Assembly (NCBI GenBank): GCA_005503065.1
Contig: SCOE01000036.1
Coordinates: 1 to 61,949 of the forward strand
DNA length: 61,949 bases
Reading direction: 5' to 3'
From: Comamonadaceae bacterium ALPHA2B
Lineage (GTDB): Bacteria > Pseudomonadota > Gammaproteobacteria > Burkholderiales > Burkholderiaceae_C
Numbering within the stretch: position 1 is the stretch's first letter; every line of letters begins with the position of its first letter. Of the stretch, positions 6,273 to 25,124 are shown one piece after another. Made by a program: the position numbers and the translations under genes. Under the pieces are notes generated by a model, which did no database searches, was not told the origin of the DNA, and saw only the letters and a program-made list of their open reading frames with translations.

Positions 6273-9200
6273 GTGAAATCTGTTGAGCAGAGCGACGACC
6301 GCGACCTTCAGGCCGACTGGAATCTGGCGCTCAGCAAACTGAAGTCTGATGGATACGGATCAGCTGATGCAGTCCTGGCGGCAACTCAGGACAGGCTTCG
6401 ACACAGCCCGGCGATCGCGACGCTCGCAAAATCCGCCGCGCTTAGGGGCGAGCTCGCGTTCTTGGCCAACCAGTTTTCTCGGGCAAGGACACTGCTGGAG
6501 GAAGCCCTTCTTCAAATTGGTCAGCTGCCGGCTAAAGCTCCTCAACTGGAAGTAGCCGCACGCCTGACACTTGCCGACACGTGCCTAAAGTTGGGCAGGG
6601 ACGCGGTCCTTGAAGATGAGATTGCGAAGTGCGCGTCGATCGCTTGTACCCAAGCCCACATCGATGCCCGTGCCGCTGCATCCATCTGGGATCTGTTCCG
6701 CAGACGCATGACACAGTGGCGACGGTTCCATCAGCTGATCTTCTATTGGATGCAGTACGCTGAACACGTTGCTCTCCGTCAGACCAAATGGAATCAGGCT
6801 GAGGCCATCGACGGCCTCGTGGAAGCACAGGGCATGGCTGGAGACGAGGACGGCTTTAGCAGAACGGCTGCTCGCCAACTTGAGCTCATGGCAGAAGCCG
6901 ACCGAGGAAAGCGCCATCAGCCTTTGCTCGCTCCTTTGGTTCGCTCCTGTCTCTGCTTCTCGATGATTGAGCCTCTCGAGTGGTCGGTTGCGGCGTTGAA
7001 GAAAACACTTGATCGGGAGCCCATGCTAGACAACGAAGTGCCGCTACTGATTCGTGTTGCTCAGGCGGAGATCATGCGGTTGCATTCCAAGCCGGCCGAG
7101 GCACTTAGACTACTGTCTATACGCGAAATCAATCATTCATCGGTCAAGCCCTCACCCGCTTTGAAGCTATCTTCCATAGTCCGTGCAAGGTGCCAAGTCG
7201 ATCTTCAGAACCTACTCGAGGCAAGAGCGGCGTGGCTTTTGGCGCTTGAGTCCGCTGGCACGTCCGATCTGCTTAGCCCGCGCCTAAGGTTCGAGGCGTT
7301 ATCAGGAGTTGCGAAGGCCTGCGACCGCACTGGGAAGTACTCCGAAGCTCGAACGGCCTACGAGGCAGCCGCCAAGCTTGCGGAGTTGGTCTTTCCTAAA
7401 GGCGACATCGAACTTTCAGTGGCACTCTACGACTTGGCAGAGATCGAACGCGTGACCGGTCGACCCGACTGGCATTCAGCGATGAATCAAGTGCTGCTCC
7501 TGGAGCAAGGTCAACGCCGCACCAAGTCAAGGTTCTACGCCTTGTTGCAGCGTAAGCTAGGCGAGCATCTGCTTGCGACCGGTAAGGTGACAGAGGCGAT
7601 TTCTAGGCTGACTGAAGCCCTCACCATCTATGAAACTGAAAAGTTTGAATTGGACGAGCGCTACCTGCGCACCGCCGCTTCGCTCGCGCGCGCGGTGAAG
7701 GCGAACGGGCAGGACGAAACTCCAGCACTGCACACGTTGATAGAGCGCGTTCGTTCGAGTGCGGGATCGATTCCATCAGTGCTCGCGGAGGCGTTGCTGA
7801 ATCTCGCTGCGGTCGAGGCGGAACTGGGCCAGCTTGAAGTTGCCGAATCGCTGCTTGACGAAGCAGCGCGGGCTGACGCAGCCCGCGGTGGCCCCAATGA
7901 TGGGACGCTCGGGATCTCGATCCTTAGTCTGCGCGCGACGCTTTGCCTTGCGAAGCAACAGATTGATCAAGCTATTGAGCTTACGTCAAAAATCTCGGAG
8001 AAGAGCGACGCGCGTTTCATAGAACTCTTCCACGGTGGTTCCATTGATGGTGCGCGACTCGCAACCGCGGAAGCCAGACCATCCGTCGAGAGACTGGTTT
8101 GGGCACTTAGTGTGCGTCCTGAGCGAACTGAGGAGCAAGTGCAAGCGACGTACACATTGGCAGTTCGTCGCAAAGGCATTGAGTCCAAGGCCTTTCGCTT
8201 GCGCAATGATAGTGGACTGCCCAATCGTACCGAACTCGAACGCAAGATACAGCGGCAGCGCGCCGCATTGACGAAGCGCAGACTGATAGGAAATTTGGAT
8301 GAAACCGAGATCGTTGAGCCGAGAGATCTGGATCGGAACCAGACCTACCTCAGCCTTCTCACATCGGAGGACCGGCTACGAACCAACTTGTTCGATGTCT
8401 CTGCGGAGGCTATCTTCGAAGAGATGAGTACATCGCGAGCAGTACTCGTAGACGTGCTGGAAGTACAGGGATTCGGTCAGGAGAAGTGTCTAGTTGCCTT
8501 CATCGTCAACGGTTGCCCCGAAACGCCTGTGGGGCTGGTCCAACTCGGAAAAAGTTCGGAGATCGGCACAAGCGTGGACAGGCTGGTTGACGCTATCCAA
8601 AGCGGACTGCCAGCGGAGCATTGGTCGACGGATGCAAGGAATCTATCCGACCTTTTACTGGCAGGCGTCGACCTGCAATGGGCTCCCGATCAATTTGCAT
8701 TCGCGCCAGAAGGCGCCCTTTTGAGGCTGCCAATCGACGTCTTGCTATTGAAGGACGGCCAGCACGTTCTCGATCGATTCGCTACCCGTGTGGTGCTTAG
8801 TGGGCGAGAAGCTCTCCGCAATCTTTACATGCGGCGGATGTCCAGAGACAAGTTCATCATAGCGGACCCCTCTTTCGGCGCTTGCACCAGCAGCCCGGAC
8901 GATCCGGGTGGCTTTCCCTTCGAGCAGCTTCCTGGGACTGCGCGGGAAGGCGCGGCCGTTGCGCAGCGCCTGGAAAACGCGACAATCCTTAGCCAATCCG
9001 AAGCGACAAAGACCAGCCTGTTCAAAATCAGATCACCGGAGATTCTGCATATCGCCACGCATGGCTTTGCAGTTTCTTTCGGAACACGGTGTGAAAGCGA
9101 TCATCTGGCGGCCATCCTTTCTGCTATTTCCGAGCCGCTGCTGAGATGTGGCTTGGCCCTTACAGATGCCAACGCCTTCTCTACTTTAAGAGAACTGGAC

Positions 9201-9677
9201 AGATCTGAAGACGGGATCCTCTGGGGAACAGACATACTTGAACTGGACGTACGGGGCACCGAACTCGTCTATCTTTCGGCGTGCCATAGCGGAGTCGGTG
9301 ACGTTTCCCTGGGCCCGGCGAGCAACAGTCTTGCATTGGCGTTTTGGCTTGCCGGTGCCCGTTCCATAGTCATGACGCATTGGGCCATTGATGACGACCG
9401 CGCCGTGCAGATGGCGTCCGCCTTCTACGACGAGGTTGTTTCTGGCCAGACATATATCCGAGCTCTACGTGCAGCAAAGCTCGCTATCCGCCAAGCCGGA
9501 GCCTCACCGTGTGACTGGGCCGCATTCAACCTGTTTGGCGAGTCGGAGGCGCTATTCGAGTATGGAGGCGTGTTTGTCACTTACGTGGACGGCGACAAGC
9601 TGGTCGCGAGAGATCGGCAAGACCAGTCGTTCTATTCCCAAATGGCCGTGAACAACGGGGTCTCGCCCGCCCCCTAG
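6273..9677 (+). CDS. TPR-CHAT caspase-like protease
   Basis: A large protein of 1134 residues with start GTG 6273, chosen because AGGAG lies seven bases upstream. The first about 600 residues are helical TPR-like repeats (for example EARTAYEAAAKLAELVFPKGD and EAISRLTEALTIYETEKFE). Residues about 760-1115 form a CHAT domain with the clan CD dyad His930 (HIATHG) and Cys1004 (YLSACHSG). CHAT proteases act in conflict and cell-death systems, e.g. TPR-CHAT with gasdermin or Craspase. It is co-directional with the protease cluster at 17146-22185, from which the 10180-16558 insertion separates it. The substrate is unknown. Confidence 0.85.
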   Translation: MKSVEQSDDRDLQADWNLALSKLKSDGYGSADAVLAATQDRLRHSPAIATLAKSAALRGELAFLANQFSRARTLLEEALLQIGQLPAKAPQLEVAARLTLADTCLKLGRDAVLEDEIAKCASIACTQAHIDARAAASIWDLFRRRMTQWRRFHQLIFYWMQYAEHVALRQTKWNQAEAIDGLVEAQGMAGDEDGFSRTAARQLELMAEADRGKRHQPLLAPLVRSCLCFSMIEPLEWSVAALKKTLDREPMLDNEVPLLIRVAQAEIMRLHSKPAEALRLLSIREINHSSVKPSPALKLSSIVRARCQVDLQNLLEARAAWLLALESAGTSDLLSPRLRFEALSGVAKACDRTGKYSEARTAYEAAAKLAELVFPKGDIELSVALYDLAEIERVTGRPDWHSAMNQVLLLEQGQRRTKSRFYALLQRKLGEHLLATGKVTEAISRLTEALTIYETEKFELDERYLRTAASLARAVKANGQDETPALHTLIERVRSSAGSIPSVLAEALLNLAAVEAELGQLEVAESLLDEAARADAARGGPNDGTLGISILSLRATLCLAKQQIDQAIELTSKISEKSDARFIELFHGGSIDGARLATAEARPSVERLVWALSVRPERTEEQVQATYTLAVRRKGIESKAFRLRNDSGLPNRTELERKIQRQRAALTKRRLIGNLDETEIVEPRDLDRNQTYLSLLTSEDRLRTNLFDVSAEAIFEEMSTSRAVLVDVLEVQGFGQEKCLVAFIVNGCPETPVGLVQLGKSSEIGTSVDRLVDAIQSGLPAEHWSTDARNLSDLLLAGVDLQWAPDQFAFAPEGALLRLPIDVLLLKDGQHVLDRFATRVVLSGREALRNLYMRRMSRDKFIIADPSFGACTSSPDDPGGFPFEQLPGTAREGAAVAQRLENATILSQSEATKTSLFKIRSPEILHIATHGFAVSFGTRCESDHLAAILSAISEPLLRCGLALTDANAFSTLRELDRSEDGILWGTDILELDVRGTELVYLSACHSGVGDVSLGPASNSLALAFWLAGARSIVMTHWAIDDDRAVQMASAFYDEVVSGQTYIRALRAAKLAIRQAGASPCDWAAFNLFGESEALFEYGGVFVTYVDGDKLVARDRQDQSFYSQMAVNNGVSPAP

Positions 9678-10171
9678 TTCAGTTGCCGCCGCAATCTCGC
9701 TTTCTGCGGCGAGCAAAGTCGCAGCTGAGCTATGTTCAGAATAGATGGTCATTCGACCAACATGCAAAGCTTCGCAATAGCCCCAGTTTCCGCTCAAAAG
9801 CCGGGACGTCTCCGTTGACTCGGCCGTCCGGTCGGCTGCTTCTGCGCGTTGAGACTTTGATCGAGCAGCAGCCGGACTGAGCCGAGATAGCGCTTCAAAG
9901 CAGTTGCGCGCTCTAGAAGCCGTGCCGAGCATCAGTCACCGTTGGCATCCCAGTTTTGCTCCACGCGCCCCGTATCGTCTGGGCTTGTTCAGCCTACCAA
10001 GAACGCCCCGACGCGCCATCTTGAGCTGAGTTCAATCCCGGACTCGGTGAGTGACACCACGCGTGGGACAGCCGCGCACGCCATCGGGACCAGCCGTCGA
10101 GTCAATCCTGCATGACGAACCGCGATATCGCAGCGAATGCGGCGCTTAGACCCGAAAGTGCCTTGGGCGTC
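9678..10171. other. Intergenic flank left of the IS66-bounded unit
   Basis: No gene is supported. Joining this flank to 16567 onward restores the pre-insertion sequence; the joined minus strand stays open for about 60 codons ending ALQIAREQE...RFVMQD, which may be the tail of a small disrupted gene. I do not recognise it. Confidence 0.4.
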
Positions 10172-10179
10172 TCCTGCTC
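10172..10179. repeat. 8-bp target site duplication, left copy
   Basis: TCCTGCTC immediately precedes the left terminal repeat; the same octamer follows the right terminal repeat at 16559-16566. Eight bp is the duplication size of IS66-family transposition. Confidence 0.85.
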
Positions 10180-10219
10180 GTAAGCGTGGCCTCATCACCC
10201 CATTGATGGCACAGCCCTG
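10180..10219 (+). repeat. Left terminal inverted repeat (solo IS66 end)
   Basis: A forty-base copy of the tnpA-side IS66 terminus without adjoining transposase genes. It directly abuts codons for VTGYGQ of a histidine-kinase receiver domain, with CAG shared at the joint, suggesting an earlier IS66 insertion into the kinase followed by deletion. Confidence 0.8.
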
Positions 10220-10705
10220 TCCGTAGCCAGTGACAGCCACCAGCATGGGGGACGTTTCCATTTCAAGGCGCACGTTCTCAGCAATTTCCCAACCACTTAA
10301 CCCTGGAAGCCCGATGTCGAGAAGCACCAGCGCGGGACGCTTGGACTTGATTTTTGCCAAAGCCTCAGGCCCAGTGCTCGCTCTAACGACCGAGTAGCCC
10401 ATAATCTCGATAAGCAGCGCGAGGGTCTCGGAAGAATCTTCCACGTCGTCCACCACGAGCACGAGTGTGGGTTGAATCTCAGTTGCCTCGTTTTCTGGAC
10501 GCTCAACCCGGGGCAAGCGAACAACGAACTCACTGCCCTCCCCCGGGACACCGCGCGACCGGGCTTCCACTTCGCCGCCATGAAGTTCTACGAGATGCCT
10601 TACCAAAGCAAGCCCAAGACCAAGCCCGCTCTCCGGACGATTGAGGTCTTGTGCTCCTTGCTCAAAGAGATTGAACACTCTAGAAAGCATGTCCGGCGCT
10701 ATGCC
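10220..10705 (-). pseudogene. Hybrid sensor histidine kinase, internal fragment
   Basis: Encodes the end of a HATPase domain (VGIAPDMLSRVFNLFEQ, then the G2 box SGLGLGLALVRHL) and most of a receiver domain (LVVDDVEDS..., LVLLDIGLPGLSGWE, then VAVTGYGQ). The 3' end is cut off by the IS66 terminal repeat and the 5' end by a junction near 10710. The His-box and sensor are missing. It is therefore inactive, although an open frame continues through the repeat. Confidence 0.75.
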
Positions 10706-10714
10706 AACCGTGGA

Positions 10715-10964
10715 CGCCACTTACTTCTTTGTGCGATTCAAAGACAACGGGGTGGGCATAGACTCATAGACTCTTCCCAAGATATTTGACATGTTTACGC
10801 AAGCAGACGGCGCAGCAACAAACAGGGGAAGCGGCCTCGGGATTGGTTTGGCACTTGTGCGTGAAATCGTCGGGAGCCACCGAGGTACTGTTGAAGTTCG
10901 AAGCAAAGGTATCGGGAAGGGAAGCGAGTTCACCATTCGCATTCCGCTTCGCCCACCACGTTGA
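10715..10964 (+). pseudogene. Histidine kinase C-terminal fragment (divergent)
   Basis: The plus strand encodes DNGVGIDS, a stop, then in another frame LPKIFDMFTQADGAATNRG, the G2 box SGLGIGLALVREIV and an end IRIPLRPPR before TGA at 10964. This is the HATPase C-terminus of a kinase related to, but distinct from, the minus-strand fragment it abuts head to head. Confidence 0.7.
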
Positions 10965-10966
10965 AA

Positions 10967-11422
10967 TCACTCGCCAGGCATGTCGTGCTCTCGACCTTTT
11001 ACTGCGTCCATGACGAGGCCGGTGATATCAGTGGTCTTGAAGAGCAGCGTGGCTACCGTCGCAACCGATAGAAGACGCCAGGGTTTCACAAGCCAAAGAA
11101 TCGCACCAGCGCCTGCTCCATACGCTATGAGTTTTGCGGGGTGGCGGGAAGCGTAGTCCTGTAGAAAAGGTTCGCCCAGCTCCACGACGCTGCTCATAGG
11201 GTTGCGTCGCCACCAGCGTCCAAGCCAACTGCTCCTCACTCGATTGTTGAGAGCGTCGATAGGACCCGCTTTTGGGTGGTTTGGAAGCTGCGCAACTTCC
11301 ACCACCGGTCCGGCCTCGTTGGATACTCGGCGAACTTCTTCGTAGCCCATAGCAGCCAAGAGATCGGCTCTCGACACGGCAAGCTTTGCCTTCGCGGTGA
11401 TTGGGCGAACAGTGTCAGTCAT
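10967..11422 (-). CDS. Small membrane protein, downstream gene of YqjD/YqjE-type set
   Basis: A 151-residue protein: a soluble N-terminal half (ADLLAAMGYEEVRRVS), then SSWLGRWWRRNP and two likely membrane segments (AYGAGAGAILWLVKPW, LLSVATVATLLF). I do not recognise the family by name. It overlaps the preceding holin-like gene by eight bases, so it is the third gene of an operon with it and the DUF883-type gene. The position matches the usual third member of yqjDEK-like sets, which are linked to stress and envelope functions. Confidence 0.6.
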   Translation of the reverse strand: MTDTVRPITAKAKLAVSRADLLAAMGYEEVRRVSNEAGPVVEVAQLPNHPKAGPIDALNNRVRSSWLGRWWRRNPMSSVVELGEPFLQDYASRHPAKLIAYGAGAGAILWLVKPWRLLSVATVATLLFKTTDITGLVMDAVKGREHDMPGE

Positions 11423-11795
11423 TCGAAGCCTCCTTCACTTTCCTCAAGACAGTTAGGTCCGCCTCGACTTCTTCCTTCACGTCTTCGACTTTTTCTTTCG
11501 TGGTCGAGCGCATGGCCAGCGCGACGCCGATGGCGGCCAACACCCATGCAACACCGGGAACTGCGGCTAGCACCCAATGAAACGACCCGTGCAAAAAGCC
11601 GAGCATGACAGCTACGCCCGTGAGCCCCAAAGCAAGCATGGCCGACACTACGGCAACCACTCCGCCTGCTGCTCTGACGGCCCATGAGGTAGCCAACGAT
11701 ACGGCCTCGCCCTTCAAGAGGTCGACATAGTTCGCCAGGTGAACAGCGAGCAAGTCGGGGCGGCGAAGGACCGCCCTGAATATGGGGTGAATCAC
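11415..11795 (-). CDS. YqjE/holin-X-like membrane protein
   Basis: A 126-residue protein with an amphipathic N-terminus (LLAVHLANYVDLLKGEAVSLA), two hydrophobic hairpins (AAGGVVAVVSAMLALGLTGV and WVLAAVPGVAWVLAAIGVAL) and a charged C-terminal tail (KEKVEDVKEEVEADL). This is the layout of the YqjE/holin-X superfamily. It follows the DUF883-like gene by 13 bases on the same strand. Family-level role: inner-membrane protein of unknown function, often stress-induced. Confidence 0.65.
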   Translation of the reverse strand: MIHPIFRAVLRRPDLLAVHLANYVDLLKGEAVSLATSWAVRAAGGVVAVVSAMLALGLTGVAVMLGFLHGSFHWVLAAVPGVAWVLAAIGVALAMRSTTKEKVEDVKEEVEADLTVLRKVKEASND

Positions 11796-11808
11796 CGCAG
11801 CCTCACAG

Positions 11809-12117
11809 TCAATCGTAGTAGCGGTAGCTCGGGCGGAGCGCTGACACGAGCAAGGTAGTGAGCAGCGAACTCACCACTGCTGTGGCGACCACCGCTTTGA
11901 CCGGCTCGTCGTTGATGGCCTTCACGACCGAGTCGCATGCGTCGCTGAGCTGAGACCGAGTGGCGTTGAGCTTCTTCCCAGCAGAGTTCACCGCGTTCTT
12001 GGCGTACGCCTTTCCAGCGTCGACCGCTTCAGTTGCAGCGCCTTTCACGCCCCCGTTGGAATCGTTGGAGCTGTGTTCGTCGTTGCGTTGTTGGTCGGGG
12101 GGAGTGTCGTTGTCCAT
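11809..12117 (-). CDS. DUF883/YqjD/ElaB-like protein
   Basis: A 102-residue protein: a polar N-terminus rich in Asn/Asp, a helical stretch (AATEAVDAGKAYAKNAVNSA...LSDACDSVVKAI), and a C-terminal membrane anchor (AVVATAVVSSLLTTLLVSAL). YqjD/ElaB proteins are tail-anchored, stationary-phase and ribosome-associated in E. coli. It is the first gene of a three-gene minus-strand operon and divergent from DUF3597 copy 2. Confidence 0.7.
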   Translation of the reverse strand: MDNDTPPDQQRNDEHSSNDSNGGVKGAATEAVDAGKAYAKNAVNSAGKKLNATRSQLSDACDSVVKAINDEPVKAVVATAVVSSLLTTLLVSALRPSYRYYD

Positions 12118-12359
12118 GGCGTTCCTTGTAGGTTGAGTTCAGGCTCCGGTATCGGTTTTTCCACATTCCCTCTCTGTGAGTCAGCAGAGCACACGTTCGT
12201 AGGCCGGGAGCCTTGCTTCGCGAGCAGCGGCCAGCCGACATTCATTCCGAAGCACATGGCCACCGAACGGGGTCAATTCCTACTTTTCGCTGCAAGCTGG
12301 GCTCACAAAGGCGAAACACGCGTCGAGCAAAGCTCAATCTCTTTCAAACGGAGACCAAC

Positions 12360-12794
12360 ATGGGCATTCTCAGCAACATTTTCAGCAAGATTTTCCCGTC
12401 GTCGCATGCAGCGAACGCACCCGCACAAGCCGGATCGACCGCCCCTACCGCTGGTGCTCCTACCGCCACGCCCTCCGCCGCCACCCCTGGAGGCACCGCA
12501 ACGCCTGCTGCCGCGCCTGCACCTGCCGTCATGAGTGAAGTGGACGTGGAAAAGCTGCTGGACGACAAGGCAGCAAAGGCCGGCGAAAAGCTGAACTGGA
12601 AGACTTCTATCGTCGACCTCATGAAGCTTTTGGACCTGGACAGTTCGCTCAACTCGCGCAAAGAGCTCGCCAAGGAACTCAACTACACGGGGGACACGAA
12701 CGACTCGGCCAGCATGAACATTTGGCTTCACCGCCAGGTCATGAACAAGGTTGCAGCCAACGGCGGCAAGGTGCCAGCGGACCTCAAGGACTAA
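12360..12794 (+). CDS. DUF3597 domain-containing protein (copy 2)
   Basis: A 144-residue paralogue of the protein at 3587-3997, with the same N-terminal MGILSNIFSKIFPS-type segment, a longer Ala/Pro/Thr linker, and the DUF3597 domain (SEVDVEKLLDDKA...NIWLHRQVMNKVAANGG). An upstream in-frame start at 12213 is rejected because the family begins at this ATG. It is a passenger of the IS66-bounded unit. Function unknown. Confidence 0.82.
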   Translation: MGILSNIFSKIFPSSHAANAPAQAGSTAPTAGAPTATPSAATPGGTATPAAAPAPAVMSEVDVEKLLDDKAAKAGEKLNWKTSIVDLMKLLDLDSSLNSRKELAKELNYTGDTNDSASMNIWLHRQVMNKVAANGGKVPADLKD

Positions 12795-12865
12795 AGCACC
12801 CACGCGTCAACACAGTGAACCGCCCCGGGTTTTGAGGAGGCTCTTTTCCCTGAGAGGATGGAGCC

Positions 12866-13555: not shown

Positions 13556-13603
13556 GTAAGCGTGGGCGAAGGCCCATCTTGATCCTGGCTGTTCGGCGGA
13601 ATC

Positions 13604-14125: not shown

Positions 14126-15699
14126 GCGGCGCGTCGCTGCTCGTCGCCCACCGCCTCGCCTCTGCCGATGTTCCACGGCAGCAGTTCCTCGATCTGGCAG
14201 ATCGGATGGTCGGCAATGCGCCCCAGCACCTCGCGCAGGTAGGCCTCGGGATCGAGCCCGTTGAGCTTGGCCGTGTGCACCAGGCTGTAGATCGCAGCGG
14301 CTCGCTCGCCGCCGGCATCCGAGCCCATGAACAGGTAGTTGCCCCGGCCCAGCGCTATCCCGCGCAAGGCACGTTCGGCTGCGTTGTTGTCCATCTCGAT
14401 GCGCCCGTCATCGCGGTAGCGCGTCAGCGCCTGCCAGCGTGTGAGGGTGTAGCCGATGGCGCGCGCCAGATCGGACTTGGCCGACACGCGCCCCACCAGG
14501 CTGCTCAGCCAGGCGTGCAGCTCATCGAGCAGCGGGCCGGCGCGGGCCTGGCGGTGAGCCTTGCGCACATCCGGTGGCTGGCCACGGACCTCCTTCTCCA
14601 CCGCGTAAAGCGCCGCGATGCGTTGCAGCGCCTGGGCTGCGATGGAGGCCTCGGTCTTGCCGGCGCTCAGGTACAGGTCCCACCACGGCCGGCGTGCATG
14701 CGCCCAGCAGGCCGCCTCGGTGACCTGGCCGCTGTCGTATAGCTTGCCCCAGCCGCCGTAGGCATCGGCCTGGAGCACGCCCTGGAAGTGGCGCAGGTGG
14801 CGCTGCGGATGTTCGCCCTTGCGGTCGGGCGTGTACTGGTACCAGGCTGCGGGTGGTTCGCCGGCGCCGGCGGGCCGGTCGTCGCGCACGTAGACCCACA
14901 GGCGTGCAGTGCGCGTCTTGCCCTGGCCAGGTGCCAACACCGGCACGGGCGTGTCGTCGGCGTGCAGCTTGGCCGCCGCCAGCGTGTAGCGGCCCAGCGC
15001 GGCCACGAGCGGCGCGAGCAGCCGCTCGCTGTGATCGACCCAGCCGGCCATGGTGGAGCGGTCGATCTGCACGCCGCTGCGCGCGTAGATGCCGCTTTGC
15101 CGGCACAGCGGCAGGTGGTCGCAATACTTGGACACCAGCACGTGGGCCAGCAGGCCTGCTGCGGCCAGCCCGCGTGCGATGGGACGGCTGGCGGCGTCCG
15201 CCTGGAAGATGGACTGGCAGCGCACGCAGGCCAGCTTGGGCCGCACATGGCGGATCACCTTGAAGCGCGCCAGCACGTACTCCAGTTGCTCGGAGACGTC
15301 CTGGCCGATCTGGCGCAGCCGCCAGCCACAGGCGGTGCAACCGCAGGGCTGGCCTGATGCGTCGTGGTGTGCGGCGTTCGTCTCGGGGCGATGCACTTGC
15401 GCCTCGCGCGGCAGGTGCGCCGGCAGGCTGCGGTCGATGGTGGGTGCGTTGGCGGCCTCGGTCTTGGTGCCAGTGGGCTTGCAGGTCGCAACGGGCAGCG
15501 CCTGCTCGTCGATCAGGCTGGCCTGCAGCTGTTCGCTGGAGCTGCCGAACTGCGCGCGCACGCGGCGCAGCAGTTGCAGCTTGAGCTTGTCCACCATCAG
15601 GCGCAGCACGGCGAGTTCGCCATCGCGCACCTCGATCACGCGCAGCAAGCCTTCGACGGTGTGGGGCTCGGCGGGTGGTGGTGTCGACACAGGCCTCAA
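14122..15699 (-). CDS. tnpC: IS66 transposase TnpC
   Basis: A 525-residue DDE transposase. It shows the leucine-rich N-terminus (LKLQLLRRVRAQFGSSSEQL), a zinc-finger-like region (CGCTACGWRLRQIGQDVSEQLEYV, then CVRCQ), the core with DDTPVPVL and QADAYGGW, and the end of the family (IEMDNNAAERALRGIALGRGNYLFMGSDAGGE). Length and motifs are complete, so TnpC looks functional, although tnpB upstream has a damaged start. Confidence 0.9.
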   Translation of the reverse strand: MRPVSTPPPAEPHTVEGLLRVIEVRDGELAVLRLMVDKLKLQLLRRVRAQFGSSSEQLQASLIDEQALPVATCKPTGTKTEAANAPTIDRSLPAHLPREAQVHRPETNAAHHDASGQPCGCTACGWRLRQIGQDVSEQLEYVLARFKVIRHVRPKLACVRCQSIFQADAASRPIARGLAAAGLLAHVLVSKYCDHLPLCRQSGIYARSGVQIDRSTMAGWVDHSERLLAPLVAALGRYTLAAAKLHADDTPVPVLAPGQGKTRTARLWVYVRDDRPAGAGEPPAAWYQYTPDRKGEHPQRHLRHFQGVLQADAYGGWGKLYDSGQVTEAACWAHARRPWWDLYLSAGKTEASIAAQALQRIAALYAVEKEVRGQPPDVRKAHRQARAGPLLDELHAWLSSLVGRVSAKSDLARAIGYTLTRWQALTRYRDDGRIEMDNNAAERALRGIALGRGNYLFMGSDAGGERAAAIYSLVHTAKLNGLDPEAYLREVLGRIADHPICQIEELLPWNIGRGEAVGDEQRRAA

Positions 15700-15759
15700 C
15701 TGTGCCGCAGGGGCGCACCCTGGGCAATCGGTAGTGCCACCGACGGCACGCCGGTGTGG

Positions 15760-16107
15760 CTATGCCGCCAACTCGGGGTGGTGCGTGCGCACCGGCATGC
15801 GCCAGTCGATGCCCTCCAGCAGCATGGACAGTTGCGCTGGCGTGAGGGCCACGCTGCCGCTGCTGGCCTGCGGCCAGATGAAGCGCCCTCGCTCCAGCCG
15901 CTTGCTCAGCAGCAACAGCCCCTGGCCGTCGAACCACAGCAGCTTGACGATGTCACCGCGGCGGCCACGGAAGACGAAGACGTGGCCCTTGAACGGGCTC
16001 TGCGCCAGGGCCGTCTGCACCAGCGCGGCCAGGCCGTCGAAGCCCTTGCGCATGTCGGTGTGACCGGCCACCAGCCAGACCTGGGTGTTCGCTGGCGGGC
16101 CGATAAT
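15760..16107 (-). pseudogene. tnpB: IS66 TnpB (IstB-like orf2) with damaged start
   Basis: The TnpB core is intact (NTQVWLVAGHTDMRKGFDGL, HVFVFRGRRGDIVKLLWFDGQG). The expected start ATGATCGG reads ATTATCGG on the minus strand at 16107-16105. One base (plus position 16105) both changes ATG to ATT here and converts the overlapping tnpA stop TGA to TTA. Translation might still begin at ATT or at an internal GTG at 16071, so loss of function is likely but not certain. Confidence 0.7.
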
Positions 16108-16457
16108 GCGCGCAGCGCCTGCAGGACGGGGCGCAGGTGCTGAAGGTTCGCGTCGGCCGGAACCCGCACGACGGCCTCGCCCAGCGCGATCTCAATCGGT
16201 GCCGATCCTTCGGCCATGCGCGTCGGCACTGCGGCAGGCTCTGGCTGCGTGACGGTCACGGGCAACAGCACGGGAGCAGTCGCAGAAGAGCCCCAGTGCT
16301 CCAGGCGCATCCAGTGGCGCAGCAGGTTCGCGTTGACGCCGTGGCGCACCGCCAGGCCGGAGACCGACACGCCCGGCACACGGGCATGTTCCACCAACCA
16401 AGCCTTGAATGCCGAGGTGTAGATCCGTTTGCCATTGCGCATAGTGCGCTCGACCAT
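15906..16457 (-). CDS. tnpA: IS66 TnpA with read-through C-terminus
   Basis: Starts at ATG 16457 (MVERTMRNGKRIYTSAF) with an HTH of the IS66 orf1 type (VSVSGLAVRHGVNANLLRHW). The family normally ends near LQALRA; here the stop is TTA (16106-16104), so the frame runs about 66 further codons out of frame through tnpB. The extra tail is not protein-like. Start chosen by family conservation over an in-frame ATG at 16508. Confidence 0.7.
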   Translation of the reverse strand: MVERTMRNGKRIYTSAFKAWLVEHARVPGVSVSGLAVRHGVNANLLRHWMRLEHWGSSATAPVLLPVTVTQPEPAAVPTRMAEGSAPIEIALGEAVVRVPADANLQHLRPVLQALRALSARQRTPRSGWWPVTPTCARASTAWPRWCRRPWRRARSRATSSSSVAAAVTSSSCCGSTARGCCC

Positions 16458-16518
16458 CGGGCCGCTCCATTGAGAGATGTGTCCAGAGTCCTGCATATGG
16501 ACACACATGCTCGGCGGT

Positions 16519-16566
16519 CAGGGCTGTGCCATCAATGGGGTGATGAGGCCACGCTTACTCCTGCTC
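16519..16566. repeat. Right IS66 terminal repeat and target duplication
   Basis: 16519-16558 is the 40-bp terminal repeat that matches 10180-10219 in inverted orientation. 16559-16566 is TCCTGCTC, the second copy of the target octamer at 10172-10179. Confidence 0.85.
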
Positions 16567-16788
16567 CCGGGCAATCTGCAAAGCAGCCACCGCGCGCTCG
16601 ACGCAGCCTGGCCAACGACCGCGCTGCGGCGACCTCGGCCCAGCCTAGCGCGACCTACGACCAAAGTAGTACCTCTCTCCGCTGAGAGCCTCAACTTTCG
16701 GCAAATAGCAAGCTCCCGTGACGCTCAGAAAGATTGACGCACCTCAGCCCGATTCGCAAGCGGCCAACTCCGCCGATTGTTTCCCCAA

Positions 16789-17110
16789 ATGGCCACAACA
16801 CTAATCCTGAGCAGCGAGCAATTCCCAGCGCTCGACCTCGCCATCGCCAATGCGTTCGCCCAAGCAGGTTTCAGCTGGAGGTCTTGGCTCGAGCGCAGCA
16901 AGCGACGTCAGCATGTCGCCGTATCAAACATGGATTGCTTTGCTTCAGCCAGGCGCAGTCGTCGAGGAGGTCAGGCACCCAGAGTTCGTGGCACGTGGGT
17001 GTGGCAGCCGCCACTTCGCGCTCAGGAGACATCGGCTTGTCCCGACTCCTCAGCGAGCTCAAGCGCAGCCGCGCGTGGAGTGTCTTGAGCGAGCTCGCGC
17101 GGCATAGCTA
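16789..17110 (+). pseudogene. Possible decayed small gene upstream of the protease operon
   Basis: A frame from ATG 16789 begins MATTLILSSEQFPALDLAIA and FAQAGFSWRSWLERS, reminiscent of helical effector-associated (EAD-like) adaptor domains. Protein-like segments then continue in other frames (PYQTWIALLQPGAVVEEVR; GDIGLSRLLSELKRSRAW with a stop at 17109-17111). This pattern suggests frameshifts in a once single gene. The domain assignment is a guess from a short helix pattern. Confidence 0.3.
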
Positions 17111-17145
17111 AACAGCCTTCAGAGCGCAACGCTAGAGGAAATCGT

Positions 17146-18738
17146 ATGGCGGACTCTCCTGGAATTCTGGCGCGACTCTTCGACCATCTTCGAGGCTCGG
17201 AGAGCACTGAATACACGCACTTTCGCTTGAATGAGCCGGGTGCGTCCCCCCCTGCAATTCGGGCGAACGAGCAATATCTACGCGTATGGCTACGATCGGC
17301 GCGCATCACGCATGAGCGTCGCTGGACAACAAAGTATCGCGCAGGAATCCATGCCCGCTTCGAGCTCAATCACCCAATTCACGGACGCAGCGAGGTCGTA
17401 AGCGTCGTTTCGCCCGACAAACTTTTTGAGGATGCTGACCCTTCCCATCTCGACCGTCTGATCGTTGTCAACCAGCTCCTACTTGGTCCGGTTCCGTACC
17501 TCGGCGAACTTGGAACTGAGATCGGTCTGTTCTCGGTCAAGTCGACAGACCTTGCCAAACCATATTTAGAACTCCTCGCCAGTCTGACGCAGGCAGCGGG
17601 CGTGAGTTTGCTAGCCAAAGCGTCGCCGTGGGCGGCCCCTATTCGACGCGGGGTCGAAATGCTGTTCGCCGAGGAAGGCAATGCTGTCCTTGAGATCGGG
17701 CTTGCACGTACCGAAACCAATCTGGCGACTGGACACTGGATCGTTGCGCGTGTGCCCAAGTCGCAACTCGACTCTAAGATGCTCCGCCTTGATCCGGAAG
17801 ATTTCAGCTTGCGCGACAGCCAGGGCGCGTCTTTGACCGAATTTCCTTACCTGGTGCTCGGCATCGAGGCCTTTGACAGTCGAGACGACTACGCGAGCAT
17901 TCCAGACATACGAGAAGGCTGGGAAGCAATACGCTCCGCGGTTGCCGAGGCCAAGCTAGATGAGGAAGTCCTCCAGCGCTTCGAATCCTTCCGTCGTCGT
18001 ATCCATCTCTCGCACGAACTGGTGCCAGCCGACCGCAGACGCGTTGTCGAGATCTTTGCACGGCAACTGCGCGATGCCGGCTTCGATCTCGCGGCTGCCC
18101 CATCCGATTCAATGGCAACCCGCTCCGATGCGCGAGTGAGACCGAGGAGCACGCTCCCGCTTGTGGAGGATGTCCTGACGCCATCGACCATGCGGGCGGG
18201 TGATGTTACGCTCTGCGATGCCCATGCCGTCGATGAACGATCCTCGTCATCGGAAGATTTTTCCTCGCGCACGAAGTCCCGAAAGACGTCGGTCACTCCC
18301 GCCAGATCCATATTGAGCCGAGGCAGTTGGCGACTGGCGGTCTCGCTGGAACAGCTCCGCCGCAATGTCAACGCTCTCGCTCCTAATCGCAGCAAGCGCA
18401 GCGACGGGGCGATCGGAGACGCAGCGCACTCCACGCGTGATTCGGACCACAACCCGTGGATTCAACTCAATGGCATCGGTGTTGTTACTGCGATCGACAT
18501 CACCCACGACCCAAACGGTGGATGCGACGCAGAACACCTTGCACACTCTCTCATCTCTAGTCGTGATGCACGCATCAAGTATGTGATCTGGAACGGCCAG
18601 ATCTTTAGCGCCACCGTACAGCCATGGACATGGAGACGCTACGGCGGCCGCAATCCACATGACCATCACATCCACATCTCTGTTCAGGCGACGCCTGAGA
18701 GATTTGATGATGCCTCCGACTGGAGTGTGACCGTGTAG
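17146..18738 (+). CDS. M15-like zinc peptidase with large N-terminal domain
   Basis: A 530-residue protein; AGAGGA lies six bases before the ATG. Residues 1-310 are an unrecognised alpha/beta region with hydrophobic blocks (LDRLIVVNQLLLGPVPYLGEL). After a Ser/Arg-rich linker, residues 395-525 resemble an M15-type D,D-peptidase fold: His435 (STRDSDHNP), Asp451 (VVTAIDITHD) and His508/His510 (HDHHIHIS) would bind zinc. No signal peptide is seen, so a cytoplasmic protein target is possible rather than cell wall. First intact gene of a four-gene plus-strand operon with a metalloprotease and a caspase. Confidence 0.65.
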   Translation: MADSPGILARLFDHLRGSESTEYTHFRLNEPGASPPAIRANEQYLRVWLRSARITHERRWTTKYRAGIHARFELNHPIHGRSEVVSVVSPDKLFEDADPSHLDRLIVVNQLLLGPVPYLGELGTEIGLFSVKSTDLAKPYLELLASLTQAAGVSLLAKASPWAAPIRRGVEMLFAEEGNAVLEIGLARTETNLATGHWIVARVPKSQLDSKMLRLDPEDFSLRDSQGASLTEFPYLVLGIEAFDSRDDYASIPDIREGWEAIRSAVAEAKLDEEVLQRFESFRRRIHLSHELVPADRRRVVEIFARQLRDAGFDLAAAPSDSMATRSDARVRPRSTLPLVEDVLTPSTMRAGDVTLCDAHAVDERSSSSEDFSSRTKSRKTSVTPARSILSRGSWRLAVSLEQLRRNVNALAPNRSKRSDGAIGDAAHSTRDSDHNPWIQLNGIGVVTAIDITHDPNGGCDAEHLAHSLISSRDARIKYVIWNGQIFSATVQPWTWRRYGGRNPHDHHIHISVQATPERFDDASDWSVTV

Positions 18739-18801
18739 CGCAAAGGGCGACTGCCCTTACCGTCTATTTTCAGAAGACCTTTCTATCCACGAGGATAAGC
18801 T

Positions 18802-19515
18802 ATGAGTGAGACGACTCGGTCGAACTGGATCTGCACAACACTTGACGTACTTGATTGCTACAGGCCGGCCCTCGGAGCCACAACGTTGCTTACAGCAGGC
18901 GTCGCAGCCAAGGACAAGCTATGGCGAAAAAATGAAACGCTCAGAATACGGTTCTTGCAGGAGGACCAGTCGCTACACGACCGCACCCTGGCCGCCGCAA
19001 GAAGCTGGTTGGTGGATGGGGTGAAGCTTCAAATGGTGCAAGCCGAGCCGCATGAGAAATCTGATATCCGAGTGGGGTTCGACGCCAACAGGGGATCATG
19101 GTCCTACGTCGGCACGGACTGCAGGACCATCCATCCGTCTCAGCCGACTATGAATCTTGGCTGGGCGACTATGGAGACGACGGATCAAGACTTCTCAAGT
19201 GTCGTCATTCACGAGTTTGGCCACGCACTCGGTCTGCTCCATGAGCACAACCACCCGGGCGCCCGATTCAAGTGGAATGTTCCAGCTGTCTATGCCGACC
19301 TCGAAGGCCCGCCGAATTACTGGGATCGAGCAACGATCGACAATAACGTCTTCGCCAAATTCGAGGCCAGCGACGTAGTCGTGACAGATTTTGATGAGGT
19401 CTCTGTGATGATCTACACCGTACCTCCGACGTGGACAGAAGACAAAAGAAGTTTCATGCCATCGTGGAAGCTCTCGGCGGGAGATGCAGCAACGATTCGC
19501 AAGCTCTACGGCTGA
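18802..19515 (+). CDS. HExxHxxGxxH metalloprotease (matrixin/astacin-like)
   Basis: A 237-residue zinc peptidase with the full metzincin motif HEFGHALGLLHEH: His137, Glu138, His141, His147. The Met-turn candidate is SVMIYTVPPT about 55 residues later. The N-terminal part (LWRKNETLRIRFLQEDQSLH) fits metzincin strand I, and the C-terminal LSAGDAATIRKLYG is typical of matrixins. No signal peptide or propeptide is visible. GAGGA is six bases before the ATG. Lies 63 bases after the M15-like gene. Confidence 0.8.
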   Translation: MSETTRSNWICTTLDVLDCYRPALGATTLLTAGVAAKDKLWRKNETLRIRFLQEDQSLHDRTLAAARSWLVDGVKLQMVQAEPHEKSDIRVGFDANRGSWSYVGTDCRTIHPSQPTMNLGWATMETTDQDFSSVVIHEFGHALGLLHEHNHPGARFKWNVPAVYADLEGPPNYWDRATIDNNVFAKFEASDVVVTDFDEVSVMIYTVPPTWTEDKRSFMPSWKLSAGDAATIRKLYG

Positions 19516-19536
19516 GCAAGTTGCGAGCACATATCG

Positions 19537-20010
19537 GTGTGGACACTTGACGGTGACACGGTTGTTCTTGGCAGCCTCAGACTTCGGTTTCATCGGATTG
19601 GTCGGGCTCACTGGGATGCGGCGCGCCCACTGCGCAGTTGGGATGTCGCCCCGCTCTTCCGCGAAGGACGGCGACTGTATGTCCCGTGCGGAGGCTCAGA
19701 AGTGCTGTGGGCGGGAGCGTGGCTTGATGAAGATGGCGTTTCGGGCCAACTGACTGTCGCGAACGTCGGCGCCGCTCGATACGCCACCATCACCCTTCCA
19801 CGGTCGTATCAGATCACCGCGCTCGTGGGTTTGGACGGCACGCCGAACCCTCTGTGCACAAGCTCGCGCCTTGACGTCGTGATGGCGACTGAGGCCCAGC
19901 GCGACGGCTTCTTGCTCGACGTGATCAGGCCCGGAGAATGGGTAGCGCTGTCACGGCGTTTCGTTCCCGAGTGCGTGGCTGCACCTCCGCTTCCCCCGAA
20001 ACTCGGTTAA
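19537..20010 (+). CDS. Hypothetical protein of the protease operon
   Basis: A 157-residue protein from GTG 19537, rich in predicted beta strands (GDTVVLGSLRLRFHRIGR, LVGLDGTPNPLCTSSRLDVV). I do not recognise a family. It begins 21 bases after the metalloprotease gene, and its stop codon overlaps the ribosome site AAGGAG of the caspase gene, so it belongs to the operon. It could be a sensor, adaptor or inhibitor of the adjacent proteases, which is inference from position only. Confidence 0.6.
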   Translation: MWTLDGDTVVLGSLRLRFHRIGRAHWDAARPLRSWDVAPLFREGRRLYVPCGGSEVLWAGAWLDEDGVSGQLTVANVGAARYATITLPRSYQITALVGLDGTPNPLCTSSRLDVVMATEAQRDGFLLDVIRPGEWVALSRRFVPECVAAPPLPPKLG

Positions 20011-20019
20011 GGAGTACTC

Positions 20020-22185
20020 ATGGCCCTAGAACCCGTTCCACACACGTTGGGCCTCTGGCGAACCCACAGATGGGAAAGAGGCGCTCCCGGCGTGTATGCG
20101 CTGGTCATAGGCGTCAGCGAGTACGCCTACCTAGAAGGGGGGCCTAAGCAAGTTGATGAAACCTACGGCATGGGGCAACTGGTCTCGTCGGCGAGAACTG
20201 CGGCGGCTATATTCGAATGGCTGCGCAACGACTTTTCACGCCAGGGCTTGCCTGTCGTACAGTGCCATCTGCTTCTGTCGCCTACGATTGATGAGAAGCA
20301 GGCGCTGGGCGACCGACTGCTGTCCCACTATGCCGCGCCGACGATGCAGAATCTTCAGGCGGCGATTCAGATGTGGACAGGATTCGTTCCGCAGAGCGCC
20401 AAAGGCGCCGATTCGGAGAGCCGGACCTTCTTTTTCTTCAGCGGCCACGGTATTCAGTCCAATTGGCACGGGGCGCTGCTGCCCTCTGACTACTTGGACG
20501 ACAGCATGGGCGCTCCGATGCTTGAGCGCTGTGTCGGTGTGGCGGATCTGCAGACTTGGATGGAACGCAGCGCCGTCACGGAGCATCTAGCGTTGATCGA
20601 TGCGTGTCGCAATGAGTTCTCACCGCTCGCCGCAAAAGGAGCAATCCCGACGAACATCTTTCCGACGGTCGGAACTGCGGGGAGGCCGCCGCGCACATCC
20701 GCGACCCTGCATGCCACTTCTCCCAACGCCGTGGCATTCCAGTCCCCCACACAGCCAGAGACATTCTTTGGCAAGGCTGTCATGGAGGCGCTGAGATCTG
20801 GTGCGGTCGGCCAACACAGCAGCTGGCTGGAGTTTCGAGAGTTGGCCGATTACGTGAAGCCTCGCATTAAGGAGTTGCTGCGTCAGGCCCAGGCAGCATC
20901 AACGGTTGATCAGACAGCACGCTTCCGCCTAGAGGGTGAAGACATTCTTGTGGTCACTGAGCGTTCACAAACGCCAGCTGTCGTGTCCTCGCGACCTGTG
21001 GTGGAAGAAGTGCGCTCAATGCGTTCGGCCAGCGCGGGACATGGCGGCACACCCGAACGCTATCGAACAATGCTTGTCGCAGAGGAACTTCTGAGCGCAG
21101 AGCAGTCGTTTCGCGCGAGTGGCTGCCGCGTGATGAAGTCCATTGCGCTCTCTGCGCTGCGTGATGACCTCGAGCTGGCGGATCGATTTGCGGCGGGAAA
21201 CATGGCCAATCTGTGGCGAAACGGTGTCTCTTCACACGCGATCGCTGACCGCGCCAGACTCGATGATCAAATCATCATCGATGCCGTTCAACGCGACGCT
21301 TCCAATTCATTGGTCACCGTTGATTTGACGCTGCCGCCTCGAGCGGGCGGCGTGCTCATGGTCTTCGAAGGCAAAGACTACATACCTCGCGCGCGTCTCG
21401 CGCTCGCAATGCCGACAGACCTACATCAACAGACACCCATTCGTCTGTCCATGAGCTTCGACAGCGTCAATGGAACCGAAAAGGCTCGCCTGTATCGGAT
21501 CTCTGCACGCCTCGGGCCAGCAGGTGGCAGTGCCGCCTACCAACATCTTTGGGCCATGCACCGAGAAGACAGTGTGGGGCTGCTTGCTTCAGATCTTCTT
21601 GAGCGCCGGATCGGTGATCTGGTTGATGCTCTGCAGCACACGCCCGCCCCAGTTGTCGCCGAACTTGCGACCATCCTCCTTTTCCTTCACGTCGGAAAGG
21701 CGAGAGACCTCCTCAGCTCAAATGCTCTTAGACATGCCATCTCATCCCCCGCAGGCAGGAGTCTTCTAGCCCTCATCAATAAAAACTTTAGTCTAAGAGA
21801 TCAGTCTTGTGCTCAACTTTCAAACATCCACGACTGGATGGCGACAGTTAAAACACTGTTGGATATCGATTGGAGCAGTACTCCACTGTTCGCGGACCTA
21901 CTCGACTTGGCTCGCAATGTAGCAGACAAAATCCTTGAGTTAATCGGGCAGGTACGGCCCAACCCCCTCAACGACCTCCTCGAGAGGATCAACCACGTCT
22001 TCGAAATCTCAGTTCCTGGTGGGCAATTCTTCACCCTCGTCGGCCTGCCGAGACCGCGATGGGCCACCAGCAGGGAAGGACCACTAACGACCGAAGAAAT
22101 GCTGGATGCGCTCCGCTTCATGCCCGAGCAAACTGAACCTATTGTCGCGTCAGCCGGGCAATTGCTGGGGAAGCTTGCCCGCTAG
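20020..22185 (+). CDS. Caspase-family (C14) protease with long C-terminal region
   Basis: A 721-residue protein. Residues 25-275 form a caspase-like domain: YALVIGVSEYAYL at the first strand, catalytic His143 in FFFFSGHGIQ and Cys196 in LALIDACRNEF. The remaining about 440 residues include a beta-rich stretch near 420-500 (VTVDLTLPPRAGGVLMVFEG) and a helical C-terminus. No signal peptide. AAGGAG lies five bases before the ATG. Bacterial caspases are executioners in several abortive-infection systems; here it is the last gene of an operon with two metallopeptidases. Confidence 0.85.
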   Translation: MALEPVPHTLGLWRTHRWERGAPGVYALVIGVSEYAYLEGGPKQVDETYGMGQLVSSARTAAAIFEWLRNDFSRQGLPVVQCHLLLSPTIDEKQALGDRLLSHYAAPTMQNLQAAIQMWTGFVPQSAKGADSESRTFFFFSGHGIQSNWHGALLPSDYLDDSMGAPMLERCVGVADLQTWMERSAVTEHLALIDACRNEFSPLAAKGAIPTNIFPTVGTAGRPPRTSATLHATSPNAVAFQSPTQPETFFGKAVMEALRSGAVGQHSSWLEFRELADYVKPRIKELLRQAQAASTVDQTARFRLEGEDILVVTERSQTPAVVSSRPVVEEVRSMRSASAGHGGTPERYRTMLVAEELLSAEQSFRASGCRVMKSIALSALRDDLELADRFAAGNMANLWRNGVSSHAIADRARLDDQIIIDAVQRDASNSLVTVDLTLPPRAGGVLMVFEGKDYIPRARLALAMPTDLHQQTPIRLSMSFDSVNGTEKARLYRISARLGPAGGSAAYQHLWAMHREDSVGLLASDLLERRIGDLVDALQHTPAPVVAELATILLFLHVGKARDLLSSNALRHAISSPAGRSLLALINKNFSLRDQSCAQLSNIHDWMATVKTLLDIDWSSTPLFADLLDLARNVADKILELIGQVRPNPLNDLLERINHVFEISVPGGQFFTLVGLPRPRWATSREGPLTTEEMLDALRFMPEQTEPIVASAGQLLGKLAR

Positions 22186-25109: not shown

Positions 25110-25124
25110 TGATCGACATGCTCA

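Follow-up and report, generated by a model that had tools for sequence, protein, structure and literature searches.

The DNA analysed here, a 61,949-nucleotide stretch from Comamonadaceae bacterium ALPHA2B (the window), contains a three-gene unit, METZ-SMALL-CASP, whose recurrence as a cassette is well supported by comparison of sequences across loci. We tentatively read this unit as a cytosolic protease-relay cassette of the kind seen in bacterial conflict systems, in which one protease would switch on another, perhaps in self-destruction or defence.

Organisation of the locus

A preliminary description of the locus had proposed that four predicted peptidases of four families, encoded on one strand, form an intracellular proteolytic cascade. 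The features are as follows.

6273-9677, + strand: TPR-CHAT gene (CHAT); Pfam CHAT at 6.4e-49, with TPRs; membership of the cassette not established
17146-18738, + strand: NDOM-M15, the M15-like gene (accessory); N-terminal NDOM at about residues 1-325, C-terminal M15-like domain at about 386-530
18802-19515, + strand: METZ, astacin/myroilysin-type metzincin; Pfam Peptidase_M10 at 2.3e-6, Astacin at 2.4e-5; no signal peptide by eye
18826-18834, + strand: METZ Trp9-Ile10-Cys11, Cys11 being the candidate cysteine-switch residue; (Q/N)W(I/V)C in 12/12 cassette METZ
18862-18864, + strand: METZ Arg21, candidate activation-cleavage site; Arg at the same spacing in 12/12
19210-19242, + strand: METZ zinc site HEFGHALGLLH (from residue 137); three His and the Glu invariant, 12/12
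19537-20010, + strand: SMALL, partner protein, predicted beta-sandwich; model pLDDT 91.2; between METZ and CASP in 11/11 other loci
19984-20007, + strand: SMALL C-terminal tail PPLPPKLG; PP-x-PP-x-x-[GA] at the C-terminus, 12/12
20020-22185, + strand: CASP, paracaspase-like protease with constant C-terminal region; Pfam Peptidase_C14 at 1.4e-7
20020-20964, + strand: CASP caspase-fold catalytic domain, residues 1-315; His143, Cys196; invariant Asp157 and Asp194
21127-22182, + strand: CASP C-terminal region, residues 370-721; common to relatives with a different upstream gene
22396-26399, - strand: convergent neighbour outside the cassette; type III-A retron genes (reverse transcriptase, PRTase-CE) and a TcmP-type gene

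All five genes on the forward strand (CHAT, M15-like, METZ, SMALL and CASP) are intact open frames, and the catalytic residues previously assigned to CHAT (His930/Cys1004), METZ and CASP are each found at their given positions. The shared strand and the catalytic motifs are likewise as described, M15-like being a label given by motif and domain partners and not by a Pfam M15 match. Gaps of 63 nt (M15-like to METZ), 21 nt (METZ to SMALL) and 9 nt (SMALL to CASP) agree with the tight operon that had been claimed; its good ribosome sites are borne out by Shine-Dalgarno-like stretches 5' of the M15-like, METZ and CASP genes, with a further one 5' of CHAT, but SMALL has no clear one. Inspection by eye of METZ, SMALL, CASP and NDOM-M15 revealed no signal peptide, as had been reported.

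The retron genes adjoin the cassette and are likely an anti-phage element beside it. Against the PADLOC models, METZ, SMALL, the M15-like protein and CHAT gave no match at E ≤ 0.1, and CASP matched the generic caspase model only (1.1e-10).

METZ, SMALL and CASP recur as a unit

The order and strand of METZ, SMALL and CASP are kept in all 11 other loci with upstream sequence, five of which represent one common chromosomal position, and the SMALL-CASP spacing is 8 or 9 nt in 11 of the 12 cassettes. A co-occurrence of this extent exceeds chance. Nearby transposases, an M15-like gene outside the recurring unit and a CHAT gene not tied to it would fit a random gathering of unrelated peptidase genes in a region rich in mobile elements; the conserved three-gene core contradicts this for METZ, SMALL and CASP, and we regard such an origin as very improbable, although CHAT may have arrived in this way.

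In four CASP relatives of greater distance, an alpha/beta-hydrolase-like gene takes the place of METZ and SMALL, and no SMALL was found in any of the four, so the slot upstream of CASP looks swappable. In five loci (L003, L009, L011, L012, L014; 15 genes, Pfam) the cassette neighbours are mainly of metabolic, polysaccharide, signalling and repair type and form no defence island, which counts against a role in defence. Among the matches listed from the open-licence literature on caspase systems and METZ relatives, none describes a metzincin-caspase cassette; the earlier statement that no described system with this gene set was known likewise holds among the matches listed on caspase systems.

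CHAT and the M15-like gene appear to lie outside the core

The preliminary description had grouped CHAT with the other genes and treated the four peptidases as equal members. The comparison does not support four equal members, and it shows no link of CHAT to the others within the range covered. In the window, CHAT is 10.3 kb away from CASP on the upstream side, and an IS66 transposase and other genes fill the roughly 7.5 kb between it and the M15-like gene. No CHAT relative was detected in the 11 informative loci within the upstream range covered, which is at most 10 kb and thus just short of the window distance (10 kb before CASP in seven loci; 7.7 kb in L011, 3.0 kb in L005, 2.3 kb in L008 and 2.2 kb in L006). 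As a control, the CHAT query recovers the genome's other CHAT gene. Three contigs of a single lineage, followed to about 20 kb upstream, likewise have no CHAT gene, a fourth contig ending after 3 kb. On an S. meliloti plasmid, a CHAT gene occurs together with NucA, M15-like and S8 genes, and CHAT may thus have a looser link.

The M15-like gene was not found in the 11 informative cassette loci, so we rejected it as a core member; from its distribution it looks like an add-on to the cassette. Three contigs (11,124, 11,829 and 15,298 bases) probably carry both M15-like and CASP genes, judging by equal contig sizes (3 of 11, matched against 55), and in one such putative pair the genes are numbered 47880 and 47910 within a single assembly. 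A lack of co-occurrence elsewhere, which would have refuted the earlier proposal, is thus contradicted for the three-gene unit, and the four-gene set appears only through these size-matched contigs. We use NDOM as a name for the N-terminal domain of the M15-like protein. Among 13 genomes with a CASP relative, Tahibacter alone also encodes an NDOM protein, and does so on a different contig; NDOM was found in 0 of 398 other genomes of the family (no more than two top first-look candidates scored per genome) and in 0 of 397 other genomes of the phylum (at most two best candidates scored each), where two matches covered the M15-like domain only. None of 32 proteins, the window protein included and some of them without the domain, matched a Pfam M15 model at E ≤ 10, and the M15 label therefore rests on the motif and the domain partners.

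NDOM is also fused in relatives to GDSL-hydrolase or lysozyme-like parts, and NDOM or the M15-like domain lies beside, or is fused to, trypsin, NucA, S8, EAD1-like or nSTAND1 genes (EAD1 matches below the Pfam cut-off). The NucA-trypsin System 3 (PMC7159879) similarly combines several peptidase families per operon, a predicted cascade and peptidoglycan-attacking add-ons, and settings of this kind also contain NDOM and the M15-like domain (L034, L059, L060). It differs from the present locus in that no NucA or trypsin match was found in the 9 + 10 window genes scanned with Pfam, the core here being a metzincin, SMALL and a caspase.

METZ is an apparently latent metzincin

METZ comes closest to myroilysin, a cysteine-switch astacin (profile match 1.4e-46, 162 bits, the best of three myroilysin chains), and has the HExxHxxGxxHE zinc site that defines astacins (M12A). 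It shares with myroilysin (M12A, PDB 5GWD) the catalytic core, an N-terminal Cys and a prosegment-like stretch; however, myroilysin is secreted (PMC4377995), whereas METZ shows no signal peptide to the eye and shares its operon with a caspase. In all 12 cassette METZ the N-terminal (Q/N)W(I/V)C is followed ten residues on by Arg. From these features METZ is apparently a latent zinc protease, with Cys11 as a candidate zinc plug.

Outside the cassettes, 4 of 15 plasmid METZ relatives lie directly before another caspase-like gene, among genes annotated as TIR, caspase and trypsin-like; no caspase was seen in the sequence examined for the other 11, nor for 7 of 7 relatives from other chromosomes. 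By eye, 14 of the 18 METZ relatives with no caspase neighbour likewise have an N-terminal Cys, so this residue is no argument for CASP as the activator. Among the four caspase-linked plasmid METZ, L074 has no clear N-terminal Cys, and L072 and L073 depart from the Arg spacing. Nor need METZ-type proteins be proteases: SCO6992 (AbsR1) bound zinc, had no proteolytic activity against either skim milk or azocasein, and is reported to be a beta-glucuronidase (PMC9705864).

Export in homologues, the second point that would have refuted the earlier proposal, gives a mixed answer. The METZ relatives L053, L078, L082 and L085 appear exported by eye, and the M15-like domain is joined to peptidoglycan-binding, lysozyme and SLT domains of cell-wall hydrolases. 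Both observations would suit METZ and NDOM-M15 as enzymes for nutrition or competition that reach the outside through lysis or along a path not yet recognised, with CASP as their maturation protease. Given the lack of visible signal peptides in all four window proteins, and the TIR, caspase and trypsin-like company of the caspase-linked plasmid METZ, three of which have no signal peptide by eye (the start of L074 being unclear), we consider this quite improbable.

SMALL is a predicted folded partner with a conserved tail

SMALL is predicted to be a beta-sandwich with one short helix and no TM helix in the model, and Ig-like and Fn3-like entries are among the matches listed in its fold comparison. 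Conserved residues run along its whole length. The codons of its tail vary by synonymous change while PP-x-PP-x-x-[GA] stays (12/12), the third-last residue is Arg or Lys in 10 of 12, and the model is less confident here (74 and 57 for the last two blocks).

A conserved, less confidently modelled tail beside a metallopeptidase recalls the zincin and FxSxx-COOH pairs of VMAP ternary systems, where the neighbour of a zinc peptidase is small and diverging but keeps a conserved C-terminus (PMC7159879). By analogy, METZ would trim SMALL to release its C-terminal peptide as a signal or toxin, and CASP would be a coupled effector. This is improbable: SMALL is a folded beta-sandwich conserved along its length, its tail is PPxPP and the FxSxx motif is absent, no radical-SAM match was found among the 9 + 10 window genes scanned, and the SMALL relative of L072 lacks this tail.

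SMALL could instead be an immunity-type inhibitor of a METZ toxin, which CASP would degrade or displace, giving a toxin-antitoxin pair with a protease trigger. Its position after METZ in 12/12 cassettes, its absence from the four alpha/beta-hydrolase forms, the Ig-like and Fn3-like matches and the basic residue near the tail in 10/12 are in keeping with such a function, which we rate as fairly improbable.

CASP is a paracaspase-like protease

The predicted structure of CASP is a MALT1-like paracaspase followed by a C-terminal region, and its caspase fold, which carries the catalytic His and Cys, places it in the caspase superfamily (C14). CASP differs from MALT1 (PDB 3UO8) in its C-terminal region, for which a very limited comparison listed no match, and a shared fold is not a shared role. 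Asp157 and Asp194 are invariant in 35/35 sequences; by the residue rule for the paracaspase/metacaspase type, we take them to specify basic residues, and cleavage by CASP is predicted to follow Arg or Lys. MALT1 substrates are of the type L-x-P-R, which the SMALL tail resembles. This tail could be a CASP substrate, but two tails have no basic residue while their CASP keeps Asp194.

Among known systems, EACC1-caspase operons share a constant caspase, a short operon, variable partners and predicted proteolytic activation (PMC7159879, Kaur et al. 2020). Their 5' gene is constant and encodes EACC1, a membrane protein with one TM helix, while the variable part follows the caspase as a fusion. Here it is the upstream slot that varies, relatives have the CASP C-terminal region in common, and the SMALL model contains no TM helix. 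CASP scored 38.7 bits against the NCBIfam model caspase_w_EACC1, below the cut-off of 140, and neither SMALL nor METZ gave an EACC1 match at E ≤ 1.

A model for the cassette

These data allow us to propose a mechanism for the relay. CASP would be the constant sensor and switch, its C-terminal region taking up a trigger, most likely an infecting phage or some other invader. Active CASP may then cut the METZ prosegment after a basic residue, with Arg21 as the candidate site, so that the Cys plug is lost from the zinc site. Freed METZ would degrade cell proteins, leading to growth arrest or cell death. SMALL may keep latent METZ near CASP, or restrain METZ or CASP, perhaps through its PPxPP tail, and NDOM-M15 would add a cell-wall-cutting effector in the ALPHA2B strain. 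The intracellular cascade first envisaged is thus retained in part: the lack of signal peptides, the recurring unit, partner swapping as in conflict systems and the type III-A retron neighbour speak for it; four equal members are dropped, and CHAT membership was not seen in the loci compared.

A more specific version follows the logic of animal caspases in two steps, whereby invasion is sensed by a MALT1-like paracaspase, which then releases a cytosolic, cysteine-switched astacin from latency while a dedicated beta-sandwich partner holds that astacin, with a lipase-like swap and optional cell-wall hydrolases; in this full form we think it unlikely.

If the relay model is right, the cassette would be a minimal three-gene bacterial protease relay, with a paracaspase-like initiator and a latent astacin executioner in one operon, and would be a simple system in which to ask if bacterial caspases switch on a second protease class. 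It would also connect a cytosolic module of defence type with the cysteine-switch latency seen in secreted enzymes. As a search handle, a METZ-type gene immediately 5' of a caspase gene has led in this analysis to more uncharacterised plasmid caspase operons.

A recurrent metzincin, small-protein and caspase cassette

The genes under study are the following:

6273-9677 (+), TPR-CHAT gene (CHAT)
17146-18738 (+), M15-like gene, encoding an N-terminal domain of unassigned fold (NDOM, ~residues 1-325) and an M15-like domain (together NDOM-M15)
18802-19515 (+), metzincin gene (METZ)
19537-20010 (+), small-protein gene (SMALL)
20020-22185 (+), paracaspase-like gene (CASP)

All five open frames are undamaged and lie on one strand, the last four separated by 63, 21 and 9 nt. 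The preliminary description had proposed a four-peptidase module of CHAT, M15-like, metzincin and caspase genes; the catalytic motifs it claimed were found at the positions it named, and Pfam agrees for the CHAT, metzincin and caspase domains. Neither the M15-like gene nor SMALL matched a Pfam family above the family cut-off. On the side opposite CHAT, the cassette is flanked by retron III-A genes (22396-26399, convergent with CASP), comprising a reverse transcriptase (PADLOC RT_III-A, 6.6e-157) and a PRTase-CE gene, accompanied by a TcmP-type gene. Further defence- or stress-type genes are present at 595-1848 (HipA-type), 27245-27883 (S24 peptidase-like) and 30098-31603 (AAA_21).

To follow the neighbourhood across genomes we scanned one genome per species (84,980 species, the stated collection size) with two CASP peptide patterns, which returned at least 12 loci. 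METZ, SMALL and CASP follow one another in this order and on the same strand at all 11 loci with sequence before CASP; the twelfth, L013, begins 141 bases before CASP and was excluded from this count. The gap from SMALL to CASP measures 8 or 9 nt at 11 of the 12 loci (76 nt in L009). Except in L007, METZ either overlaps SMALL or ends no more than 25 nt before it, a spacing that depends on predicted start codons. The 11 loci are not independent, because five (four Pseudorhodoferax and one contig labelled Variovorax) occupy a single chromosomal place and three are from Thauera; the others are one Tahibacter and two MAGs labelled cyanobacterial, labels as deposited. METZ-SMALL-CASP is almost certainly a real functional cassette. 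By sampling, CASP is rare: it occurs in 5/399 family genomes, own genome counted, the other four being, as judged by length, the same contigs as four of the 11 loci. A wider profile matched 4/398 phylum genomes, again including its own, with full-length matches only there and in one other genome (G705). Other metallopeptidase genes adjoin two cassette copies (L009 7299-8381, L011 9989-10852; Aspzincin_M35, PF04228).

Features of the metzincin and the small protein

Among solved structures METZ is closest to myroilysin (E 1.4e-46 with a profile, and 2.7e-33 for the single sequence, covering residues 88-235), an astacin in which a prosegment Cys blocks the zinc (PMC9848320). All 12 cassette METZ proteins carry (Q/N)W(I/V)C in a short N-terminal segment, with an Arg exactly ten residues past the motif Cys; two that appear shorter in the alignment reflect start-codon prediction, and the motif is present in their frames. 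An N-terminal Cys can also be seen by eye in 14 of the 18 METZ relatives that have no caspase nearby, which suggests that latency may be a family trait and the Arg spacing alone peculiar to the cassette. The AbsR1/SCO6992 family model gave METZ 124 bits (6.7e-36), well below its cut-off of 650. In the study of Streptomyces SCO6992 (AbsR1), the protein bound zinc, degraded neither skim milk nor azocasein and is reported to be a beta-glucuronidase (PMC9705864), which stands against a protease role for METZ. A Kovacikia relative of METZ (L079 3821-4898) is divided between two reading frames.

The AlphaFold2 model of SMALL is a beta-sandwich predicted with confidence (pLDDT 91.2) except at its end, which is less certain; no clear match was found among solved folds. 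Its C-terminus reads PP-x-PP-x-x-[GA] in 12/12 proteins with codons that vary synonymously, so that this end seems to be conserved at the protein level.

Metzincins beside other caspases

We examined METZ relatives on 15 of 15 plasmids, of which L077 and L086 are near-copies of each other. On four, the METZ relative is immediately followed by a caspase-like gene in which GHG and D[AC]C motifs occur; for the other 11, no caspase was found in the stretch examined. Chromosomal METZ relatives from elsewhere in the class gave the same result, 7/7 showing no caspase in the stretches examined (2 kb only for L047).

Caspase-like genes directly after plasmid METZ relatives. Each E-value is from a caspase profile excluding that sequence.
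L072, S. terangae: caspase-like gene, 3.5e-25
L073, Cupriavidus: caspase-like gene, 6.8e-25
L074, Thiodictyon: caspase-like part in a TIR-annotated protein, 1.3e-8
L075, Bradyrhizobium: gene annotated caspase, 3.2e-26

A profile excluding all four recovered three and missed L073. In L072 a SMALL relative follows the caspase (17.5 bits versus 3.9 for the best of 500 shuffles). L075 has a possible, weak SMALL relative before METZ (11.0 bits with an L072-containing profile, best shuffle 2.4), and the C-terminal region of CASP is matched there by a gene of its own (4.2e-10). The caspase-like genes that come straight after a METZ-type metallopeptidase on these plasmids belong to other lineages, an uncharacterised general pairing.

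An apparently variable slot upstream of CASP

Four distant, full-length CASP relatives are directly preceded by an alpha/beta-hydrolase-like gene with an SHSMGG motif, forming two-gene operons in a same-order genome (L016), an Agrobacterium plasmid (L057 4687-8061), a Deinococcus plasmid (L058 4649-7908) and a same-phylum genome (L067 7754-11163); neither METZ nor SMALL was found at these loci. Pfam support for the hydrolase is weak (best 0.0044, below cut-off). The CASP C-terminal region is homologous between the two forms (124.8, 117.7, 104.8 and 44.2 bits, profile of that region alone), and in a tree all METZ-type CASPs fall to one side of a 100/100 branch, the partner not being known for eight further rows. 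The slot before CASP thus looks swappable from these comparisons. In L068 and L071 a caspase precedes a gene weakly matching the CASP C-terminal region, with no SHSMGG-type hydrolase found next to it, and L069 has caspases in tandem. A Qat defence gene (QatA) lies ~5 kb from the L057 CASP relative, and the L058 operon has in its vicinity a gene with the annotation thiol-activated cytolysin family.

The CHAT and M15-like genes

As to the remainder of the proposed module, neither an M15-like gene nor a CHAT relative was found in the 11 cassette loci. For CHAT this is a weak test, because upstream stretches reached at most 10 kb and the window CHAT lies 10.3 kb before CASP; none was found in ~20 kb upstream on three contigs of a single lineage either. 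Membership of CHAT is unproven rather than excluded. The M15-like gene starts ~7.5 kb downstream of CHAT, the interval holding an IS66 transposase, further transposase-piece-like genes, a kinase/receiver gene, a DUF3597 gene and a weakly holin-like gene. The sole other CHAT match of the genome (L037 8082-10226) adjoins TPS secretion and ShlB-type transporter genes, a setting unlike that of the window CHAT.

The M15-like assignment was made only from domain partners and the motif H..D..HxH, which we take to be the M15 zinc ligands; the M15 family model matched 0/32 proteins tested. M15-like relatives P0003, P0004 and P0007 are on contigs equal in size to those of CASP relatives P0101, P0096 and P0094 (11 sizes against 55), and one such pair is numbered 47880 and 47910 in a single assembly, so the four-gene form, M15-like plus cassette, is probably present in other genomes. 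NDOM is joined to an M15-like domain, to a GDSL-like hydrolase plus M15-like domain, or to a lysozyme-like part. On an IMG/VR contig (L034 6408-15986) the lysozyme-NDOM protein adjoins EAD1-like (below cut-off), trypsin-like and nSTAND1 NTPase genes, genes that together could make up a conflict operon, on DNA of a prophage or of a host. Fusions of the M15-like domain involve either trypsin together with NucA, or S8, or SLT and peptidoglycan-binding domains. On plasmids it occurs with trypsin-like and AAA genes (L059) and, in S. meliloti (L060 2003-12414), among consecutive NucA endonuclease, M15-like, alpha/beta-hydrolase-like, PAS, CHAT and S8 peptidase genes.

Relation to known systems and a possible relay

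Caspase-centred and multi-peptidase conflict systems have been described, and in the accounts consulted their metallopeptidases are rare effector domains or inactive domains joined to others, or belong to secreted toxins or peptide-processing pairs (PMC7159879, PMC8195603). The trypsin, NucA, S8, nSTAND1 and CHAT neighbours or fusions of NDOM and the M15-like domain resemble System 3 of Kaur et al. (PMC7159879). The cassette falls outside the EACC1-caspase and NucA-trypsin systems by the core test of each, and no description of it was found in the literature on caspase systems, among the matches listed.

The gene order, families, conserved residues and differing upstream partners observed here form the basis of the reading that we favour, though only tentatively as a whole: a relay. 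CASP would sense a trigger, perhaps phage, and once active would unlock METZ, which might then kill or stall the cell; SMALL may hold or restrain, and in strain ALPHA2B NDOM-M15 would attack the wall.
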